Positions 26,913 to 36,174 of a stretch of DNA of 36,174 nucleotides are shown in pieces. Under the pieces are notes generated by a model. That model was not told the DNA's origin. It did not search any database and saw nothing but the letters and a program-made list of their open reading frames with translations. Source of the DNA: Actinomycetota bacterium (GTDB lineage: Bacteria; Actinomycetota; Acidimicrobiia; Acidimicrobiales; MedAcidi-G1); assembly GCA_014381945.1 (NCBI GenBank), contig JACNKQ010000060.1, forward strand, positions 1-36,174, read 5' to 3'. Each line of letters opens with the position of its first letter. Position 1 is the stretch's first letter. The position numbers and the translations under genes are program-made.

Positions 26913-28325
26913 CTACGGGAGGATGTCGAGGTATTCTTCGACGTCCCAGTCGGTGACGGTCGCCATGAAGCGTTCCCATTCGTCGCGTTTGTAGTGCTCG
27001 AAGACGCGGTACATGTCGCCGGGAAGGGCGCTCTTGACGACCTCGTCGGCATCGAGGGCATCGAGGGCCTCGCCTAGCGACAGCGGTATCTTCTTGACCT
27101 CCTTGCCGGCTTCCATGGCCTCGTAGATGTTGCGCTCCTCGGGCGGGCCCGGGTCGAGGTTCCGGTCGAGGCCGTCGTCCATCGCCTTGATGAGGGCGGC
27201 AAACGAGAGGTACGGGTTGACCGCCGAGTCGACCGAGCGGTATTCGAAGCGGCCCGGTGCGCTGATGCGCAGGGCGGTGGTGCGGTTCTGGAAGCCCCAG
27301 TCGGCGAAGACGGGCGCCCAGAAGCCGGTGTCCCAGAGGCGCCGGTACGAGTTGACGGTGGGGGAACCCAGGCAGGTGAGTGCCCGGAGGTGCTCCATGA
27401 TGCCGCCGATGGCCTTCATGCCGATCGGGCCGGGGATCTGGGGGTTGTCGCCCTCGGGCATGAACGTGTTGTTGCCGCCCTCGTCGGGCTCGCCGTCCCA
27501 CAGCGAGATGTTGTGGTGGCAGCCGTTGGCGGACACGCCCATGAACGGCTTGGGCATGAAGCACGGGAAGGCACCCAGCTCGCGTCCGACCTGCTTGCAG
27601 ATCTGGCGGTAGGTGGTGAGCCGGTCGGCGGTGAGCTCGGCCCGGTCGAAGTTGAAGTTCAACTCGAGTTGTCCGGGGGCGTCTTCGTGGTCGCCCTGGA
27701 TCATGTCGAGGCCCATGGCCTCGCTGTACTCGACCACCTTGTGGATCAGCGGCTGCAGTTCGGCGAACTGGTCGATGTGGTAGCAGTTTGGCTTGGTCAT
27801 GCCCTCAACGGTTGGCTTGCCGTCGGCGTCGGCCTTGAGCCACATCATCTCGGGTTCGGTGCCGGCGCGCAGGTGCAGGCCGGTCTTGGCCTCGAACTCG
27901 GCGTGGATGCGCTGGAGGTTGCCACGGCAGTCGGAGGTGAGGAACATCCCACCGTCGACCTCCTCCTCACGTCCCCGGAACAGGGTGCAGAAGACCCGGG
28001 CGGTCTTGGGGTCCCAGGGGAGCTTGCAGAACGTGTCGGTCTCGGCGACGCCGACCAGTTCGCGTGACTCGGGTCCGTAGCCGATGTAGTGGCCGTGCCG
28101 GTCGACGAAGAGGTTGGCCGTCGAGCCGTAGACGAGTTGGAAGCCCTTGTTGGCGATCGTGCCGAAGTGCTTGGCCGGGATGCCCTTGCCCATGATCCGT
28201 CCGGTGACGGACACGAACTGGCAGTAGAGGTACTGGATTCCCTCGGCTTCGATCTGCCGCTGGATCTCGGTGACCTGCTCCTGACGTCCTTCGGCCTCGA
28301 TAAACCGCTCGATGTCGGTGGACAT
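26913..28325 (-). CDS. Glutamine-synthetase-like ligase, possible gamma-glutamylmethylamide synthetase
   Basis: A 470-residue ligase of the GlnA/GlnT superfamily. It joins ammonia or an amine to the gamma-carboxyl of glutamate using ATP. Active-site landmarks are GTEPEMMW (Glu157, Glu159), GDHEDAPGQLELN (Glu214, Glu221), the metal-site NGCHHNIS (His270-271), NSYRRLW, and RFEYRSVDSAVNPYL. The start at 28325 has a strong AGGGGGA just upstream; a longer frame exists but is not supported. It is the first gene of the minus-strand run, directly before the three glutamate-synthase-like genes. That order is the one expected of gamma-glutamylmethylamide synthetase followed by N-methylglutamate synthase. 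A role as a biosynthetic glutamine synthetase is less likely given the context, but the amine is unproven. Its promoter region is the AT-rich island at about 28400. Confidence 0.88.
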   Translation of the reverse strand: MSTDIERFIEAEGRQEQVTEIQRQIEAEGIQYLYCQFVSVTGRIMGKGIPAKHFGTIANKGFQLVYGSTANLFVDRHGHYIGYGPESRELVGVAETDTFCKLPWDPKTARVFCTLFRGREEEVDGGMFLTSDCRGNLQRIHAEFEAKTGLHLRAGTEPEMMWLKADADGKPTVEGMTKPNCYHIDQFAELQPLIHKVVEYSEAMGLDMIQGDHEDAPGQLELNFNFDRAELTADRLTTYRQICKQVGRELGAFPCFMPKPFMGVSANGCHHNISLWDGEPDEGGNNTFMPEGDNPQIPGPIGMKAIGGIMEHLRALTCLGSPTVNSYRRLWDTGFWAPVFADWGFQNRTTALRISAPGRFEYRSVDSAVNPYLSFAALIKAMDDGLDRNLDPGPPEERNIYEAMEAGKEVKKIPLSLGEALDALDADEVVKSALPGDMYRVFEHYKRDEWERFMATVTDWDVEEYLDILP

Positions 28326-28568
28326 GCTTCCCCCTGCTCGTGGATTGGCTCCGGTACCGCTACCGGTTCGACAACGGTGTGTCCGTCGTCGCTCGACTAT
28401 CATATATATCAAGTAGCCTTACTGCTAGTGAAATTCTGCTAGATCGAAATCCGCCGGTTGCGGAGGACTGTGGTCGGCATCCACCCTGTTCTGCAGTCGT
28501 TCCGGGTGGCAGAATCGGACGATCCACCAGTACCAATCGTGGGAGACGACCGTTGAGGGAAAGCGACC
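28326..28568. promoter_or_regulatory. Divergent promoter region with AT-rich island
   Basis: This 243-base gap separates the ligase operon (leftwards) from the DUF1989-GcvT fusion gene (rightwards). Around 28397-28445 the GC-rich background drops sharply: TCATATATATCAAGTAG is followed by TTACTGCTAGTGAAATTCTG. Several TATAAT-like hexamers are available in both directions (for example TATATA on either strand), so both promoters and an operator probably lie here. No coding frame is credible. The ligase is preceded by AGGGGGA and the fusion gene by GAGGGAAAG. Confidence 0.5.
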
Positions 28569-30917
28569 ATGTCTGACGCCGGTCCCAGACTGCTCCTCCC
28601 CGGCCTCGCTGACATCGCCCCGGGCACCGAGCGCTACCGCGTCAAGGGCGGCGCCGTCACCGCCCTACTGCTGGAGCCCGGCGACGAGCTCCAGGTGGTA
28701 GACCCCGAGGGCTGCCAGCCCGTCGAGGTCGCCGCCTTCGACCGCTCGGGTACATGCCACACAGGGCTCCTCGGTGTCGAACAGGGCACCCCCGCCACCG
28801 GCATCGCCGAGATCCTCACCGCCGGCCGGGAGGGCGGTCGCCGCGACGCACAGCGCATCGCCGACGCCCTCACCGACCAGGACATCGACCTCGGCACCGC
28901 CAATGCGGTCCACCTCTTCGCCCCCGACTCTCCCGCCGGAGAAACCGCCAGCCTCACAGCACAGGCCCCAGTCATATGCGTGGTCGGCGTGCCCGGCCCC
29001 CGGATGCTCCCCCACGAGCAGAACCCACCCACCGACGTGATCGTCTGGGTCCACCGGGCACGGCTGCCCGAACCGGGCATGGAGGTCCTCCCCGACCCGC
29101 TGGCCGACCAGAACCAGGACATCCGCATTCCCAGGGCAACCGCCGTCGCCTACCAGGTCAGCGCCGGCGAGTTCATCCAGGTCATCGACGTCGAGGGCCG
29201 CGAGTGCTCCGACTTCCAGGTCTTCACCACCGCCGGCCTCGAGGCAGGCATCGAACGCACCCTCGACGCCACCATGACCCGCAGCCTCATGGGGGCCAGC
29301 TACCCGATGCCGGGCCTGTTCGCCAAGTACTTCGCAGTCGACGGCCAGCCTCTCGTCGAGATCATCCAGGACACCGTCGGCCGGCACGACACCTTCAACA
29401 CCGCCTGCAACCCCCGCTACTACGAGGAGATGGGCTACCCCGGCCACATCAACTGCAGCGACAACTTCAACCGGGTCCTCGACCCCTTCGGCGTCACCCC
29501 CCGCAGAGGCTGGGAGGCCATCAACTTCTTCTTCAACACCAACCTCGACGATGACAACCAGATCTTCTTCGAGGAACCCTGGTCGCGTCCCGGCGACTAT
29601 GTCCTGCTCCGGGCGCTCACCGACCTGGTGTGCGTCTCCTCTGCCTGCCCGTGCGACATCGACGCCGCCAACGGCTGGAGGCCCACCGACATCCATGTCC
29701 GCGTCTACCCGGCGACCAACACCTTCAAGAAAGCGACGGCCTTCCGCATGACGACCGATGCCGAGCCCGAACTCACCAGGGAGACCGGATTCCACCCCAG
29801 GACGTCCGGGCACACCCGCAACTTCACCGAGTACGCCGGCTTCTGGCTGGCCAGTTCGTACACACGGCACGGCGCCGTCGAGGAGTACTGGGCCTGTCGC
29901 CAGAAGGCCGCCGTCATCGACCTGTCGCCACTGCGCAAGTACGAGGTCGTCGGCCCCGATGCCGAACTGCTGCTCCAGACCTGCGTCACCCGCAACATCC
30001 GCAAATTGGCGGTCGGGCAGGTCGTCTACACGGCGATGTGCCACGACACCGGCGGGATGATCGACGACGGGACGGTCTTCCGCCTCGGCCGGGACAACTT
30101 CCGCTGGATCGGCGGCTCGGACGCGAGCGGCCAGTGGCTGCGCACCCAGGCCGTCGAGCGCGGCCTCGAGGCGTTCGTGCGCAGCTCCACCGACCAGTTG
30201 CACAACATCCAGGTGCAGGGGCCGCTCAGCCGGGAGATACTCGGCGAGGTGGTGTGGACCCGACCCGACCAGCCCACCATCGACGAACTGGGCTGGTTCC
30301 GACTCACGATCGCCCGCGTCGGTGGTGCCCAGGGCATCCCGCTGGTGGTCTCGCGCACCGGCTACACGGGCGAACTCGGCTTCGAGGTGTTCTGCCATCC
30401 CGACCACGCCCCGGCCGTCTGGGACGCCGTCTTCGCAGCAGGCGGCCCGAGAGGCATGGTGCCGATGGGCCTCGAGGCGCTCGACATGCTCCGCATCGAG
30501 GCCGGCCTGGTCTTCGCCGGCTACGAGTTCTGCGACCAGACCGACCCCTTCGAGGCGGGCATCGGCTTCACCGTGCCCCTCAAGACCAAGGAGGACGACT
30601 TCATCGGGCGTGAGGCCCTGCTCGCACGCAGTGCCAGCCCGCAGCGGAGGCTCGTCGGCCTCGAACTCGCCGGCGACGAGGTCGTCGGCCTCGGCGACGG
30701 CGTCTACGTCGGCCGCAACCAGGTCGGCACCGTCACCAGCGGCGTGCGCTCGCCGATCCTCGGCCGGAGCATCGCCCTCGCCAGGGTCGCCGTCGGATAC
30801 GCCGAGAACGGCACGCAACTCGAGGTCGGCAGGATGGACGGCCATCAGAAGCGCCTCCCCGCGACCGTGGTCGGCTTCCCCCACTACGACCCGGAAAAGG
30901 AACGCGTGCGGGCCTGA
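28569..30917 (+). CDS. Fusion of two DUF1989-like domains with a GcvT-like aminomethyltransferase
   Basis: A 782-residue protein with three parts. Residues 20-165 form a diverged DUF1989-like barrel (GGAVTALLLEPGDELQVVDPEG). Residues 185-390 form a fuller DUF1989 domain (AVAYQVSAGEFIQVIDVEG, then the Cys-rich LVCVSSACPCDIDAANGW with Cys355, 360 and 362, and PTDIHVRVYP). Residues 415-775 are a glycine-cleavage T-protein/DmdA-like fold with GGMIDDGTVFRLG (the catalytic Asp region), SRTGYTGELGFEVFC and GLEALDMLRIEAGL. T-proteins bind tetrahydrofolate and take up a methylene or methyl group. I infer that this enzyme passes a C1 unit from an N- or S-methylated compound to THF. It is divergent from the ligase operon and has GAGGGAAAG upstream. 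The role of DUF1989 is not established; its cysteines may bind metal. Confidence 0.87.
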   Translation: MSDAGPRLLLPGLADIAPGTERYRVKGGAVTALLLEPGDELQVVDPEGCQPVEVAAFDRSGTCHTGLLGVEQGTPATGIAEILTAGREGGRRDAQRIADALTDQDIDLGTANAVHLFAPDSPAGETASLTAQAPVICVVGVPGPRMLPHEQNPPTDVIVWVHRARLPEPGMEVLPDPLADQNQDIRIPRATAVAYQVSAGEFIQVIDVEGRECSDFQVFTTAGLEAGIERTLDATMTRSLMGASYPMPGLFAKYFAVDGQPLVEIIQDTVGRHDTFNTACNPRYYEEMGYPGHINCSDNFNRVLDPFGVTPRRGWEAINFFFNTNLDDDNQIFFEEPWSRPGDYVLLRALTDLVCVSSACPCDIDAANGWRPTDIHVRVYPATNTFKKATAFRMTTDAEPELTRETGFHPRTSGHTRNFTEYAGFWLASSYTRHGAVEEYWACRQKAAVIDLSPLRKYEVVGPDAELLLQTCVTRNIRKLAVGQVVYTAMCHDTGGMIDDGTVFRLGRDNFRWIGGSDASGQWLRTQAVERGLEAFVRSSTDQLHNIQVQGPLSREILGEVVWTRPDQPTIDELGWFRLTIARVGGAQGIPLVVSRTGYTGELGFEVFCHPDHAPAVWDAVFAAGGPRGMVPMGLEALDMLRIEAGLVFAGYEFCDQTDPFEAGIGFTVPLKTKEDDFIGREALLARSASPQRRLVGLELAGDEVVGLGDGVYVGRNQVGTVTSGVRSPILGRSIALARVAVGYAENGTQLEVGRMDGHQKRLPATVVGFPHYDPEKERVRA

Positions 30918-31098: not shown

Positions 31099-34000
31099 TC
31101 ACGCCTCAATGAGTCCGAGTTGCTCCTTGCGCTTGTCGGCCCACTCGGAGATGATCATGTCGACCGCCATGCCGATGGCGGCGACCGCCATGCCGGCGAT
31201 GATCGCCCGGCCGCTGTCGACGTTGGGCTGCGCCTCGATCAGGTCGCGGGCGAGGCCGCCGGTCTTGATGAGGCCACCGATCATCACCATGAAGAGGCCG
31301 AACATGATCGTCTGGTTGATGCCCAGCATGATCTCCGGCACCGCCAGCGGAACCTTCACCTTCCACAGCGTCTGGCGCTTCGTGCAGCCCGACATCGTCG
31401 AGGCCTCGACGAGGTGGTGCGGAATGTTCCGGATGCCGAAGATCGTGTAGCGGATGGCCGGCACGCCCACCGACATGACGACGGCGAAGACGACGGCGGT
31501 GTCGGAGACCGAGAAGAACATGATCGCCGGCAACAGGTAGACGAACGAGGGGAACGTCTGGAAGGCGTCGAGCAGCACCTGCACCACGGAATTCCGGCGA
31601 TCCGATGCAGAGGCCCAGATCCCGAACGGCACACCGGCGGCCGCTGCGAAGAACACGGCGAACGTGAGCTGGTACAGGCTGAACATCGCCGGGGCCCAGA
31701 AGCCGCTCAGGGCGATGAAGGCGAAGAAGCCCGACGCAAGGATCGCCAGGCGCCTGCCGTTGACGAACCAGCCGATCGTGAACAGGAGCAGGACAGCAGC
31801 GACCCACGGAACGGTCAGGAAGGCGTCGCGTAGGGGCAGCAGGGCATAGCGCTCGAGGTGGTCGCGGAACCAGATGGTGCTCTGATAGAGGCTGATGTCA
31901 TGGCTCTGGGCGACGATGCTGCTCGTCGCCCCGGCCAGGGGACCCTTGAGGAGCAGGGCGAGGAAGACACCCGTGCCCACCGTCACCGCCGACGTGAACA
32001 GCGCCGGAAAGCCACTGACCGGCGTGGAGACCCTGTCGGCCGGAGAACCGTCCGTTCCACCGAAGCCTCGTCGCAACGTGTCGAACACGAGACCTACGAC
32101 GAGGGCGACGAGGGCGAACTTGAGGGCATCGGCGTTCTGGCTGACCGGGCCGTCGATGATGATCCCGAGCAGTACGACCAGCCCGACGCCGATCGCCGCT
32201 GCAGACACCATTGCCCCCGGGAGGTGCTTCCCCTCCGTCGCCGATCCGTTGCCACCGAACACGGTGCCGAAGACGCGCCGGAGGACATCGAGTCCGAAGC
32301 AGACCACGAGCACCACGACCGCCACCTGCAGGATGCCACCGAGGTTGTCCCGCACCTCGCCCGGCGTCAGCAGGCCGACGACGACCACAGCCACCAGCGC
32401 CGCAGCGGCACCGGCGGGGCCCTTGTGTTGCTGCCACAGCGCCACGCCCTCGACCCGTGGCGAGTCGGAGACCGTGACGATCCCCCGGCGAAACCCCTCG
32501 ACGAGCAACACGGCGACCCCGAGGATGACGAGAACCTGGACGACCGGCCTCGCGTTCTGGATCGCCCCGACGTTGACGACGATGTCGAGGATGACGCCGA
32601 GGGCCAGGGTCCCCACGGCACCGATCAGGTAGGGGTGCCGGCCGGCGGACGGGGCGTCGGGGGAAGCCCCTGAAGAAGCGTCGGCGGCAACGCGGGCGCC
32701 GAAGACCCGCTGCAACACCAACAGGATCCCGGCGAGGATCAGGACGACGAACGCCGACTGGATGATTCCGAGCCGGTTGTCACCCAACAGGAACAGCAGG
32801 CCGACCACGACGACGACGACACCACCGGCGTAGGCCACCCGGGCATGGTCGTCGAGCCCGTCCATGCGGGCCGAGGATCGACCGAGCAGGTCGATGACCA
32901 GCCCGATCGCCAGAATGGCGACGACCAGCACGAGGGCGTTGTCGAGTCCTTCACCCGCGAGGTTCTGGACCGGCAGGATGATCTTGTCGTCGAGGTGCCA
33001 TCCCAGCCAGTCGATCCAGTCGTACACGGACCAGACGAGGGCGTTGTCGACGAACCAGTCTGTGGCCTGGCGGACGTGGTTCTGCATCCAGCCCTTCGGG
33101 ACCCGCTGTGCGGCATCCCAGGTGTTGGCCATGAAGAGGCCGATGGCGAGGACGGCGCCGGTGGCCAGCAGGTAGGGATGCCTCCTGACGAACGACTCGT
33201 CGGCGTCATGGTGGACGGGCTGCAGGTTGCCGAGACCCTGGCTGAACCGGTCGAGGGTGATGGCCATGACGACGACGGCGATGCCGATCTCCACGCCGGA
33301 GCCGATCTTGAGGCCGGTGAGGCGGAACAGGAGGTCCTGCCCGAGGCCGGCGGTGCCCACGAACGAGGCGATGACCACCATGGCGAGGCACTCCATCACC
33401 ACCTGGTTGATGCCCACCAGGAGGGCGCTGCGGGCTGCCGGCATCTCGACCTTCCACAGCATCTGCCGTGGTGTGCAACCGGACATGACGCCGGCCTCGA
33501 CGACCTCCTTGGAGATCCCCTGGATGCCCAGGATGGTGAGGCGGGCCATCGGGGGCATGGCATAGGCGATGGTTGCGATGACACCGGCCTTGTGCGACAC
33601 ACCGATGAACACGCCGATCGGGATCATGAACGTGAAGTGCGGCATCGCCTGGGTGAGGTTCAGCAACGGGTTGAGGAACTGCTCGACCCGACGGCGCTTG
33701 GCGGCGAAGACGCCCAGCACGCTGCCGATGGCTGCAGCGATCGGGACGGTGACGAGCACCGCCGAGAGCGTGATCATCGTCTTGTCCCAACGGGTCTCGG
33801 CACCCTCCTTGAGGGGAGGCTCGCCGATGAACGAGGCGTAGACGATGAACCCGACGGACAACAGGGCCAGCTTCCAGCCGCCCAGCTTAAAGCCGGCAAC
33901 GCCGAACAGGCCGGCGATCACGATCCAGGGAAGGGCGGGGATGTCCCACGGCTCGTAGAAGCCGATGAACGCATACCAGGCGACGAGCAGGGACACTGCC

Positions 34001-34920
34001 GCCCAGCCGCCGCTCCGCCTCTGCCAGGCCAGATAGGCGCCGCCGCCGACCATGCCGGCGAACAGGACCACCCAGGGCAGGACGCCGAGGTGCAGCCATT
34101 CGCGGTCGCCTAGCCAGGGGAAGTCCCCGAACTGGAGCGGATAGCCCCGGATGAGCAGGCCCTCGCTGATGTCGAGCGGCGCCTCCAGCCACTCGGCGAC
34201 ACGACGCAGGAGAACCTTGACCTGGAACGACTCCTCGGAGGTCTGGAACAGGATCCAGCCGGCCGTGGCGATGCCCGTGGTGGCAGCCAGCCAGGGGAAG
34301 CCGCTGACCCGGTCCCGGATCCACATCGCTGCCGTGACGAAACCGGCAGCGAGGAACACCCACCCCAGGGTCCCCGGCTCGCGGCGGATGCCGTCGAACA
34401 GGTCGACCGACCAGGCCAGCCAGGCGACACCGGCGAAGGCAGCCAGCCACCGGCCGGTACGCACCGTCCAGACCTTCCAGGCACATGCGGCGAGCAGGAC
34501 CACCGCCAGGATCAACCACGGCACCCGTGACAGGTGCCAGTTGACGACGAAGTCGAGGAACTCCTTCTTGCGGAGGTGGTCGAACCAGACGTTGACCCAG
34601 CCGGTGGCCTTGTGGCGGCCGGCGCCGGCGTCGCGTCCGGCGAAGTCGAACCAGTCGACGGTCCAGGCCCGGGGCACCGAGTAGAGCCACTCGGTGATTC
34701 CGGCCTCCTTGTCCTGGTGGAGTCGCAGGTCGCCGAGGCGCCACCAGAGCAGCCAGATCGCGGCAAAGGGACCGACCGTCAGCAGGAACTTGGCCCGACC
34801 CGTCATGCCCTTGGCGGGACCGTCGGCCGAAGCGGCACCGTGCTCCACGGACTGTGTGGGCGGCGCTACATCGACCGCCTCGGGCGTGGACGTAGCCCCT
34901 GGAGTGGGAGCGTCGGGCAT
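31099..34920 (-). CDS. Giant double ABC permease of glycine-betaine (ProW/OpuAB) type with repeated membrane linker
   Basis: A 1273-residue permease, several times longer than an ordinary ProW. After a Pro/Ala-rich head and about eight hydrophobic segments, the first permease domain (about 380-560) has the EAA loop EAGVMSGCTPRQMLWKVEMP (475-494). A second permease domain (about 1035-1260) repeats it as EASTMSGCTKRQTLWKVKVP. Between them, residues 650-955 hold five similar hydrophobic units about 60-71 residues apart, each ending in a motif like LDVLRRVFG (near 680, 740, 812, 885 and 953). Both halves of the transporter channel are thus in one chain. ATG 34920 is 9 bases after the ATPase stop, so the two are co-translated. 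The importer likely takes up glycine betaine, choline or a related quaternary amine. The role of the repeated helices is unknown. Confidence 0.88.
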   Translation of the reverse strand: MPDAPTPGATSTPEAVDVAPPTQSVEHGAASADGPAKGMTGRAKFLLTVGPFAAIWLLWWRLGDLRLHQDKEAGITEWLYSVPRAWTVDWFDFAGRDAGAGRHKATGWVNVWFDHLRKKEFLDFVVNWHLSRVPWLILAVVLLAACAWKVWTVRTGRWLAAFAGVAWLAWSVDLFDGIRREPGTLGWVFLAAGFVTAAMWIRDRVSGFPWLAATTGIATAGWILFQTSEESFQVKVLLRRVAEWLEAPLDISEGLLIRGYPLQFGDFPWLGDREWLHLGVLPWVVLFAGMVGGGAYLAWQRRSGGWAAVSLLVAWYAFIGFYEPWDIPALPWIVIAGLFGVAGFKLGGWKLALLSVGFIVYASFIGEPPLKEGAETRWDKTMITLSAVLVTVPIAAAIGSVLGVFAAKRRRVEQFLNPLLNLTQAMPHFTFMIPIGVFIGVSHKAGVIATIAYAMPPMARLTILGIQGISKEVVEAGVMSGCTPRQMLWKVEMPAARSALLVGINQVVMECLAMVVIASFVGTAGLGQDLLFRLTGLKIGSGVEIGIAVVVMAITLDRFSQGLGNLQPVHHDADESFVRRHPYLLATGAVLAIGLFMANTWDAAQRVPKGWMQNHVRQATDWFVDNALVWSVYDWIDWLGWHLDDKIILPVQNLAGEGLDNALVLVVAILAIGLVIDLLGRSSARMDGLDDHARVAYAGGVVVVVVGLLFLLGDNRLGIIQSAFVVLILAGILLVLQRVFGARVAADASSGASPDAPSAGRHPYLIGAVGTLALGVILDIVVNVGAIQNARPVVQVLVILGVAVLLVEGFRRGIVTVSDSPRVEGVALWQQHKGPAGAAAALVAVVVVGLLTPGEVRDNLGGILQVAVVVLVVCFGLDVLRRVFGTVFGGNGSATEGKHLPGAMVSAAAIGVGLVVLLGIIIDGPVSQNADALKFALVALVVGLVFDTLRRGFGGTDGSPADRVSTPVSGFPALFTSAVTVGTGVFLALLLKGPLAGATSSIVAQSHDISLYQSTIWFRDHLERYALLPLRDAFLTVPWVAAVLLLFTIGWFVNGRRLAILASGFFAFIALSGFWAPAMFSLYQLTFAVFFAAAAGVPFGIWASASDRRNSVVQVLLDAFQTFPSFVYLLPAIMFFSVSDTAVVFAVVMSVGVPAIRYTIFGIRNIPHHLVEASTMSGCTKRQTLWKVKVPLAVPEIMLGINQTIMFGLFMVMIGGLIKTGGLARDLIEAQPNVDSGRAIIAGMAVAAIGMAVDMIISEWADKRKEQLGLIEA

Positions 34921-34929
34921 CGTCGCGGC

Positions 34930-35940
34930 TCAGTTGTCCGCAAAGAGTGCTTCGGCCACCTGGGCGCGGGTGATGGAACCGACCACTACGCCGTCCTCGA
35001 CCACCCGGACCGGACCGGGGGCGTTCAGGACCTGTCGGGCCGCTGCGGCGACCTTGACATCGCCCGCCACCTCGCCTTCGGCTTCTTCCGAGACCGGTCC
35101 CATGAGCGTGTGGACCCGCAGCAGCTTCGAACGCGGAACGTCCCTGGTGAAGGCGGCCACGTAGTCGGTGGCCGGATCGGTGATGAGGTCCTCGGCCGTG
35201 CCGAGCTGCTCGATCAGGCCATCGTGCATGATGGCGATGCGGTCGGCGAGGCGGATTGCCTCATCGAAGTCGTGGGTGATGAACACGATCGTCTTGTGCA
35301 GCGTGGACTGCAGTCGCAGGAACTCGTCCTGCATCTCCCGTCGGATCAGCGGGTCGAGGGCGGAGAACGGTTCGTCGAGGAACCAGACATCCGGTTCCAC
35401 GGCGAGCGACCGGCCGATGCCCACGCGCTGCTGCTGGCCGCCGGAGAGCTCGCGGGGGAAGTAGTCACCCCGACCATGCAGACCGACCAGGTCGATGATC
35501 TCGAACGCCCTGGCGTGTCGGGTCTCCCGGTCGACGCCCTGCACCTCGAGGGGGAAGGCGACGTTCTCGGCAACCGTACGGTGGGGGAACAGCGCGAAGT
35601 GCTGGAACACCATGCCCATCTTGTGGCGACGGAGTTCGATCATCTCCGCCTCGGTGGCGGCAAGGAGGTCCTGGCCGTCGAACTCGATGTCGCCCGCCGT
35701 GGCATCGATGAGACGCGACATGCAACGCACCAGGGTGGACTTGCCTGAGCCGCTGAGGCCCATGAGCACAACGATCTCGCCCTCGTGGACCTCGAGCGAG
35801 GCGTCACGGACGGCAGGGATGTAGCCGTTCTCCTTGATGGTAGCGAGGTCCGGGTTGCCGCCGTGGGCGGCGAGGAACTTCCGGGGTTCGGGCCCGTACA
35901 ACTTCCAGACGTTCTGGCAGATGACCTTCGGATGACTCAT
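34930..35940 (-). CDS. proV: Glycine betaine/proline ABC transporter ATPase (ProV/OpuAA type)
   Basis: A 336-residue ATPase. The Walker A motif is GLSGSGKST, followed by the Q-loop FQHFALFPHRTV typical of ProV, the signature LSGGQQQRVGIGRSLA, Walker B VWFLDEPFSALDP and the switch FITHDFDEA. The N-terminal extension WKLYGPEPRKFL is also ProV-like. The C-terminal 100 residues (VPRSKLLRV, then VRVVEDGVVVGSITRAQVAEAL) are a shortened CBS-like regulatory tail, which in OpuA senses ionic strength. ATG 35940 matches the family start; the open frame extends 34 residues further without similarity. It follows the binding-protein gene after a 149-base gap containing a strong hairpin and is followed 9 bases later by the giant permease. 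Substrate class is inferred from family. Confidence 0.92.
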   Translation of the reverse strand: MSHPKVICQNVWKLYGPEPRKFLAAHGGNPDLATIKENGYIPAVRDASLEVHEGEIVVLMGLSGSGKSTLVRCMSRLIDATAGDIEFDGQDLLAATEAEMIELRRHKMGMVFQHFALFPHRTVAENVAFPLEVQGVDRETRHARAFEIIDLVGLHGRGDYFPRELSGGQQQRVGIGRSLAVEPDVWFLDEPFSALDPLIRREMQDEFLRLQSTLHKTIVFITHDFDEAIRLADRIAIMHDGLIEQLGTAEDLITDPATDYVAAFTRDVPRSKLLRVHTLMGPVSEEAEGEVAGDVKVAAAARQVLNAPGPVRVVEDGVVVGSITRAQVAEALFADN

Positions 35941-36008
35941 GGTGGTCCGGGCCTTCTCGGATCTGGGGACTGGCTGGTCGTTGGCGGTGAACGGCCCATG
36001 GCAGGCGA

Positions 36009-36052
36009 CGGGCCGGTCGTGGAGGAGGGTGGGATCCTCCACGACCGGCCCG
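36009..36052 (-). promoter_or_regulatory. Strong intercistronic hairpin after the binding-protein gene
   Basis: The arms, 36009-36026 and 36035-36052, are perfect reverse complements over 18 bases (for example GGGCCGGTCGTGG against CCACGACCGGCCC) around an 8-base loop. There is no T tract after it on the minus strand. Such stems after binding-protein genes usually protect the upstream mRNA or cause partial termination, so that the binding protein is made in excess over the ATPase and permease. Confidence 0.6.
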
Positions 36053-36089: not shown

Positions 36090-36174
36090 CTATGACATCC
36101 AGGACTTCCAGCGGTCCTCGTTGTCGGCCAGCCATTTGGCGGCCGCATCCTCGGGCTCCATGCCGTCGATGTCG
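36090..36174 (-). CDS. C-terminus of glycine-betaine-type substrate-binding protein, 5' part beyond window
   Basis: The last 27 codons before a TAG at 36092-36090 read EPEDAAAKWLADNEDRWKSWM. The pattern AAxxWLxxNxDxxxxW is the usual end of OpuAC/ProX quaternary-amine binding proteins. It lies upstream of the ATPase and permease on the same strand, completing the importer. Only the tail is in the window, so no ligand residues can be checked. Confidence 0.75.
   Translation of the reverse strand, partial: DIDGMEPEDAAAKWLADNEDRWKSWMS

Follow-up and report, generated by a model that had tools for sequence, protein, structure and literature searches.

The 36,174-nucleotide stretch of DNA analyzed here (hereafter the window) encodes a 1273-residue permease with a long run of hydrophobic sequence between its two permease domains. 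The question that this locus raises is where that sequence came from and what it might do between two permease halves.

A fused double permease in a methylamine gene neighbourhood

The first-pass annotation had described two full permease domains with separate EAA loops in one 1273-residue ORF, and this description was borne out, with Pfam BPD_transp_1 matching two stretches of the ORF (122 bits, cut-off 26.4) and an EAA loop readable in each half (EAGVMSGCTPRQMLWKVEMP and EASTMSGCTKRQTLWKVKVP).

31099–34920, minus strand: fused double permease, TmoW-like, 1273 aa (ORF; two Pfam BPD_transp_1 domains; ChoW/ProW-like in NCBIfam)
33226–33801, minus strand: permease core 1 with EAA loop, residues 374–565 (Pfam; dN/dS 0.07)
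31126–31680, minus strand: permease core 2 with EAA loop, residues 1081–1265 (Pfam; aligns to core 1; OpuA TMD match)

The two cores align with each other over 180 residues, scoring 292 where shuffled sequences average 36. Both domains are nearest to the ChoW/ProW permeases in NCBIfam but lie below the curated cut-offs for those subfamilies (choline permease ChoW, TIGR03416, 318.6 bits over two stretches, cut-off 363; E. coli-type ProW, NF008196, 291 bits, cut-off 439). The ORF is a fused double permease of the ProW/ChoW/OpuA type, with two BPD_transp_1 domains. The fusion itself, which had been flagged as unusual for permeases that normally work as single-domain homodimers, turned out to be ordinary, because every close homologue found in the proteobacteria and Acidimicrobiales is a fused two-domain chain, usually of 656–730 aa, and FbpB is a solved fused type I precedent.

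The neighbouring genes are those of an importer and of trimethylamine N-oxide (TMAO) catabolism.

34930–35940, minus strand: ProV/TmoV-type ATPase, likely start MSHPKV at 35940 (TIGR01186, 322 bits)
36090–36173, minus strand: C-terminal end of a substrate-binding protein of the TmoX type, truncated where the contig stops (77% identity to the L025 OpuAC protein)
28569–30917, plus strand: trimethylamine N-oxide demethylase (Tdm), convergent neighbour (NF053776, 1216 bits, cut-off 1100)

The ATPase gene lies immediately upstream of the permease; its longest ORF (34930–36042) starts at 36042, the start at 35940 being judged likelier from 336-aa homologues and the sequence. The contig ends 130 bases beyond this ORF, and the last 27 codons of the binding protein, reading DIDGMEPEDAAAKWLADNEDRWKSWMS-stop, match residues 318–343 of the L025 protein. 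Because the contig ends inside this gene, the OpuAC family search found no complete binding protein in the window's own genome. The same genome encodes trimethylamine monooxygenase (Tmm) on another contig (NF058570, 811 bits). In relatives L025 and L028 the gene order is binding protein, ATPase, permease and tmm, with a complete operon in L025, and tmm lies directly downstream of the permease in L025, L027, L028, L030 and L033. Deletion of tmoW in Ruegeria pomeroyi abolishes growth on TMAO, and tmoXWV of HTCC1062 complements (PMC8918994). Given the partial OpuAC-type gene, the ProV-type ATPase, the adjacent tdm and the tmm genes beside homologous operons, the 1273-aa protein probably serves a TMAO importer as its TmoW subunit, the substrate being assigned from these neighbours. 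The host is a marine member of the Acidimicrobiales, judging by its named relatives.

A type III glutamine synthetase-like gene (26913–28412, minus strand; 324 bits, below the 469.6 cut-off) adjoins tdm and perhaps takes part in handling methylamine nitrogen. Lipoprotein-like ORFs were also seen in sister genomes, one with two near-identical OpuAC domains in a single chain (L100, G005:C111, 3–2080, minus strand), the other with Bmp, SBP_bac_3 and OpuAC domains and then the beginning of a further OpuAC copy (L101, G013:C31, 1–2523, minus strand). Both run off their contigs, as the window's contig likewise ends inside an OpuAC gene, and breaks at these receptor ORFs fit a repetitive multi-receptor lipoprotein.

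An array of two-helix hairpins between the permease halves

A hydrophobic linker of some 300 residues had been noted between the halves; it extends over about 349 residues (655–1003) and contains ten hydrophobic segments, that is, five two-helix hairpins. Phased as helix, basic turn and helix, the units start at residues 655, 714, 788, 857 and 929.

32782–32958, minus strand: hairpin A, residues 655–713, a weakly supported copy (layout and start motif shared; 10/100 shuffles reach its score)
32560–32781, minus strand: hairpin B, residues 714–787 (0/100 shuffles; 94% to the junction profile described below)
32353–32559, minus strand: hairpin C, residues 788–856 (0/100 shuffles; 52% to the junction profile)
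32137–32352, minus strand: hairpin D, residues 857–928 (0/100 shuffles; 34% to the junction profile over 57 columns)
31912–32136, minus strand: hairpin E, residues 929–1003 (0/100 shuffles; 29% to the junction profile over 60 columns)

The first phasing of the units gave only three significant pairs in pairwise scoring, and the phase used here performed better. With shuffles that keep the hydrophobic pattern, pairs B–D and D–E score at z of about 9, with 0/1000 shuffles reaching either score, and the same pairs reach 94 and 85% in profile comparison. When each unit was compared with a profile of the four others, hairpins B to E all scored above every one of 100 shuffles, whereas the score of hairpin A was reached by 10 of 100. 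Hairpins B–E are therefore statistically supported repeats, and of the five similar units originally proposed, hairpin A belongs to the series by position and layout only, a tentative assignment. Plain BLASTP self-comparison of the protein, as run, gave no off-diagonal hit, so that sensitive methods are needed to see the repeat; the self-alignment by which it was to be judged thus failed in its simple form, and the shuffle tests and profile comparison uphold it.

Two details of the original description required correction. The unit spacing measures about 54–74 residues rather than 60–71, and the VLRRVFG-like motif, placed earlier at the end of each unit, lies halfway along each hairpin, at its turn (LQRVFG, FRRG, LRRVFG, LRRGFG). 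These RR-motif turns carry two to four Lys/Arg residues, the opposite turns none or one, and by the positive-inside rule the RR-motif turns are cytoplasmic. The outer loops are only 3–9 residues long.

Parentage and distribution of the hairpins

To look for a parent of the repeats, a profile was built from ten unit sequences (those of the window and of the relative L022) and set against profiles for each part of the family. The sole region to match it was the junction hairpin, which links the two halves and consists of the last core 1 helix (..GIAVVVMAITLDRFSQGLG..) and the first helix of half 2 (..RHPYLLATGAVLAIGL.., RHPYLLATG).

33106–33309, minus strand: junction hairpin J, residues 538–605, putative repeat parent (sole region matching the repeat profile)

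The match has a probability of 89.8% (E=1.8e-6, 61 columns) against a junction profile made without the window's clade and of 73.8% against canonical homologues only. In a sliding scan of the whole protein, windows starting at residues 526–580 (within 526–649) gave 48–87% and those elsewhere under 1%, with reversed-profile controls under 4%; 49 hydrophobic windows from unrelated proteins reached at most 1.7%. Units B, C, D and E also match the junction individually (94, 52, 34 and 29%, respectively). These comparisons indicate that the array arose by internal duplication of the hairpin that joins the two halves, so that the duplication proposed from the sequence gains a named parent. Identity between the units and the junction is low, and the array is carried by two sequences only. 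Repeats at the DNA level amount to short, chance-like families, which indicates that the duplications are old.

That the array is instead a separate small membrane protein inserted between the halves seems very improbable. The low identity to the junction and the lack of a match for hairpin A would fit such an origin, yet apart from the junction no part of the protein, and none of the unrelated membrane segments, gave a match, no other array-bearing protein and no stand-alone family was hit in 48 family genomes and 395 genomes sampled across the class, and no Pfam family matched the array. Two further comparisons concern inserts elsewhere in the family. The pre-core hairpin (PW..GGW), expected as a source from its doubling in L079–L084 (see below), was rejected at 0.08–0.3% in profile comparison, and so was kinship of the array to the linker insert of the 1013-aa class (0.13%).

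The array is present in 2 of the 48 family genomes, both of one genus, with no other carrier among the 395 sampled in the class, and this distribution excludes the possibility, raised at the outset, that the linker consists of ordinary helices common to all homologues. The 1273-aa form is confined to the window and L022/L003, the window's protein and its counterpart being 85% identical. L022 comes from an independent MAG, and its 1273-aa counterpart aligns without an indel, so the array is not an assembly artefact.

The homologues fall into length classes. The canonical class (656–730 aa) occurs in proteobacteria and Acidimicrobiales; a class of 866–879 aa, from the window's own family, has extra hairpins confined to its N-terminal half, and a class of 1013–1015 aa has about 135 further residues in the linker. 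In a tree of the cores the 1273-aa pair groups with most of the 866–879 class, at a weak support of 0.71, and apart from the 1013 class. Sister lineages either have no insert at the array site or have another module there, copied from the N-terminus.

33946–34545, minus strand: N-terminal extra hairpins N1, N2 and N3, residues 126–325 (mutual repeats; absent from the 656–730-aa homologues)

In profile comparison N1–N3, N1–N2 and N2–N3 reach 98, 95 and 90% probability, and the best outside match of the three hairpins, though weak, is to the pre-core hairpins. The linker insert of the 1013-aa class is a copy of N1–N2 (99.85%, E=9e-31). In another Acidimicrobiales lineage (L079, L081 and L084) the pre-core hairpin in the N-terminal third is visibly doubled, GPVPWIVIIGLLAGIGALLGGWKLAALAGACSLYLA / GAVPWVVLVGLFAVAGAKLGGWRLALLAGGCSLYLA, as a recent-looking tandem duplication. 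One isolate, ALOHA_A2.5_69, carries paralogous permeases of 1014 and 879 aa (L024 and L026; G009:C170 and G009:C5).

Because three different parent hairpins are seen, namely the junction hairpin in the window, the N-terminal module in the 1013-aa clade and the pre-core hairpin in L079–L084, the stretch leading from the first helix of each half to the core has been expanded at least three times. The family may thus grow as its own two-helix hairpins are copied in tandem, time and again, at a single permissive site before each half, in at least three independent expansions that possibly serve multi-domain binding lipoproteins, a generalization to which we give slightly less than an even chance. 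If true, a transporter can gain whole helical scaffolds stepwise, two helices per step, with its topology kept.

Selection, structure and a proposed scaffold role

The alignment of the window's protein with that of L022 is gap-free over its whole length, including the 349 codons of the array. In this comparison dN/dS is 0.61 (0.47–0.84) in the array, about six-fold above the cores (0.07–0.12, core 1 being the lowest), and 0.13 in the N-terminal hairpins. Of 57 changes in the array helices, 98% keep the polar or non-polar class, where random nonsynonymous changes would be expected to do so in 76% of cases (P=3.5e-6). The array helices are therefore under relaxed selection that keeps hydrophobicity: their hydrophobicity and length are kept, and their sequence is free. 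The retention of ten helices through this divergence without one indel hints that the array is more than filler.

A neutral insertion decaying toward loss is an improbable reading of these figures. The high dN/dS of the array would agree with it, as would a same-genus genome in which the last ~170 permease codons alone remain beside tdm, directly joined to unrelated sequence (L034, 6001–6513; = L012, G002:C13), a remnant that is either a relic of a 5' deletion or an assembly join. In the two carriers, however, the frame is open, indels are absent, helix changes keep their class as above, and purifying selection on the gene's cores is strong.

Somewhat less improbable, but still unlikely, is a functional docking or regulatory module selected for a specific task; it might, for example, offer a platform to a partner membrane protein or to the binding lipoprotein, or sense lipids or osmotic state. 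The indel-free codons, the strongly kept helix hydrophobicity, conserved patches such as NRLGIIQSAF and RDNLGGILQVAVV and the multi-domain binding lipoproteins of sister genomes, with two OpuAC domains, are all in line with such a module. Against such a module, the dN/dS of the array is far higher than that of either the cores or the N-terminal hairpins, its outer loops are very short, and close sister lineages do without the array or have an unrelated insert at the site.

Residues 75–1273 were modelled with AlphaFold2 from 24 sequences (model numbering is the window residue minus 74). The cores are mostly at pLDDT 70–87 and the array is below 50 (30–50), or at 39 when the array was modelled alone from its two sequences. 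The best PDB match to the model is OpuA (Z 25.7, 267 residues, window residues 987–1262), and the fused FbpB matches across both halves (Z 15.2, 392 residues). A scaffold has been described around the OpuA TMD (PMC8199443); the array lies in the stretch before core 2, which would be the counterpart of that scaffold.

The reading that we favour, and consider fairly probable as a whole, is that the protein is the TmoW of a TMAO importer whose junction-derived hairpins form a passive membrane scaffold on a working pore. TmoX on the outer face would hand TMAO to the pore formed by both fused halves, two copies of the neighbouring ATPase would bind the two EAA loops and power uptake, and Tdm would demethylate the imported TMAO. 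The junction hairpin (the final helix of half 1, a basic turn on the cytoplasmic side and the opening helix of half 2) would have been duplicated repeatedly between the halves, adding helices stepwise and in pairs; since every copy brings in an even number, half 2 would keep its orientation and the pore could still work. In OpuA-type permeases each core is preceded by a scaffold region, and it is there that the ten extra helices would fall, most likely packing on the exterior of the pore and serving as a scaffold or spacer within the membrane, constrained only to be hydrophobic and of fixed length.

The main interest of the locus lies in membrane-protein evolution. How large membrane proteins gain helices has mostly been deduced from ancient events in which whole halves were duplicated. 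In the present case one bacterial family offers a living series, from no insert through a copied N-terminal module to a five-hairpin array, with the parent hairpin still recognisable. As growth on TMAO as nitrogen source provides a phenotype, both the even-number topology rule and the price of added helices are open to direct testing in this transporter. A search of the open literature for hairpin duplication in ABC permeases returned nothing relevant.

Among known systems, TmoXWV of R. pomeroyi and Pelagibacter HTCC1062 (PMC8918994) shares the OpuAC-type binding protein, the ProV-type ATPase, the tdm/tmm neighbours and TMAO metabolism; the N-terminal extra hairpins and the array are absent from the canonical-length homologues compared, a set that does not include the R. 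pomeroyi sequence. The 1013-aa homologues (L024, L030 and others) are likewise fused, lie in an operon with tmm and have extra helices in the linker before the half 2 core, but their insert copies N1–N2 (99.9%, E=9e-31) and has no kinship to the window's array (0.1%). OpuA of Lactococcus lactis (PDB 7ahc, 7ahh) is the closest solved permease by sequence (4.8e-38) as well as by fold (Z 25.7), although it is a homodimer with a single TMD fused to its own binding domain and has no hairpin array. The fused ferric permease FbpB (PDB 9j4r) carries both permease halves in one chain, as here, but serves another substrate class, and its chain of 490 residues leaves no room for an array.
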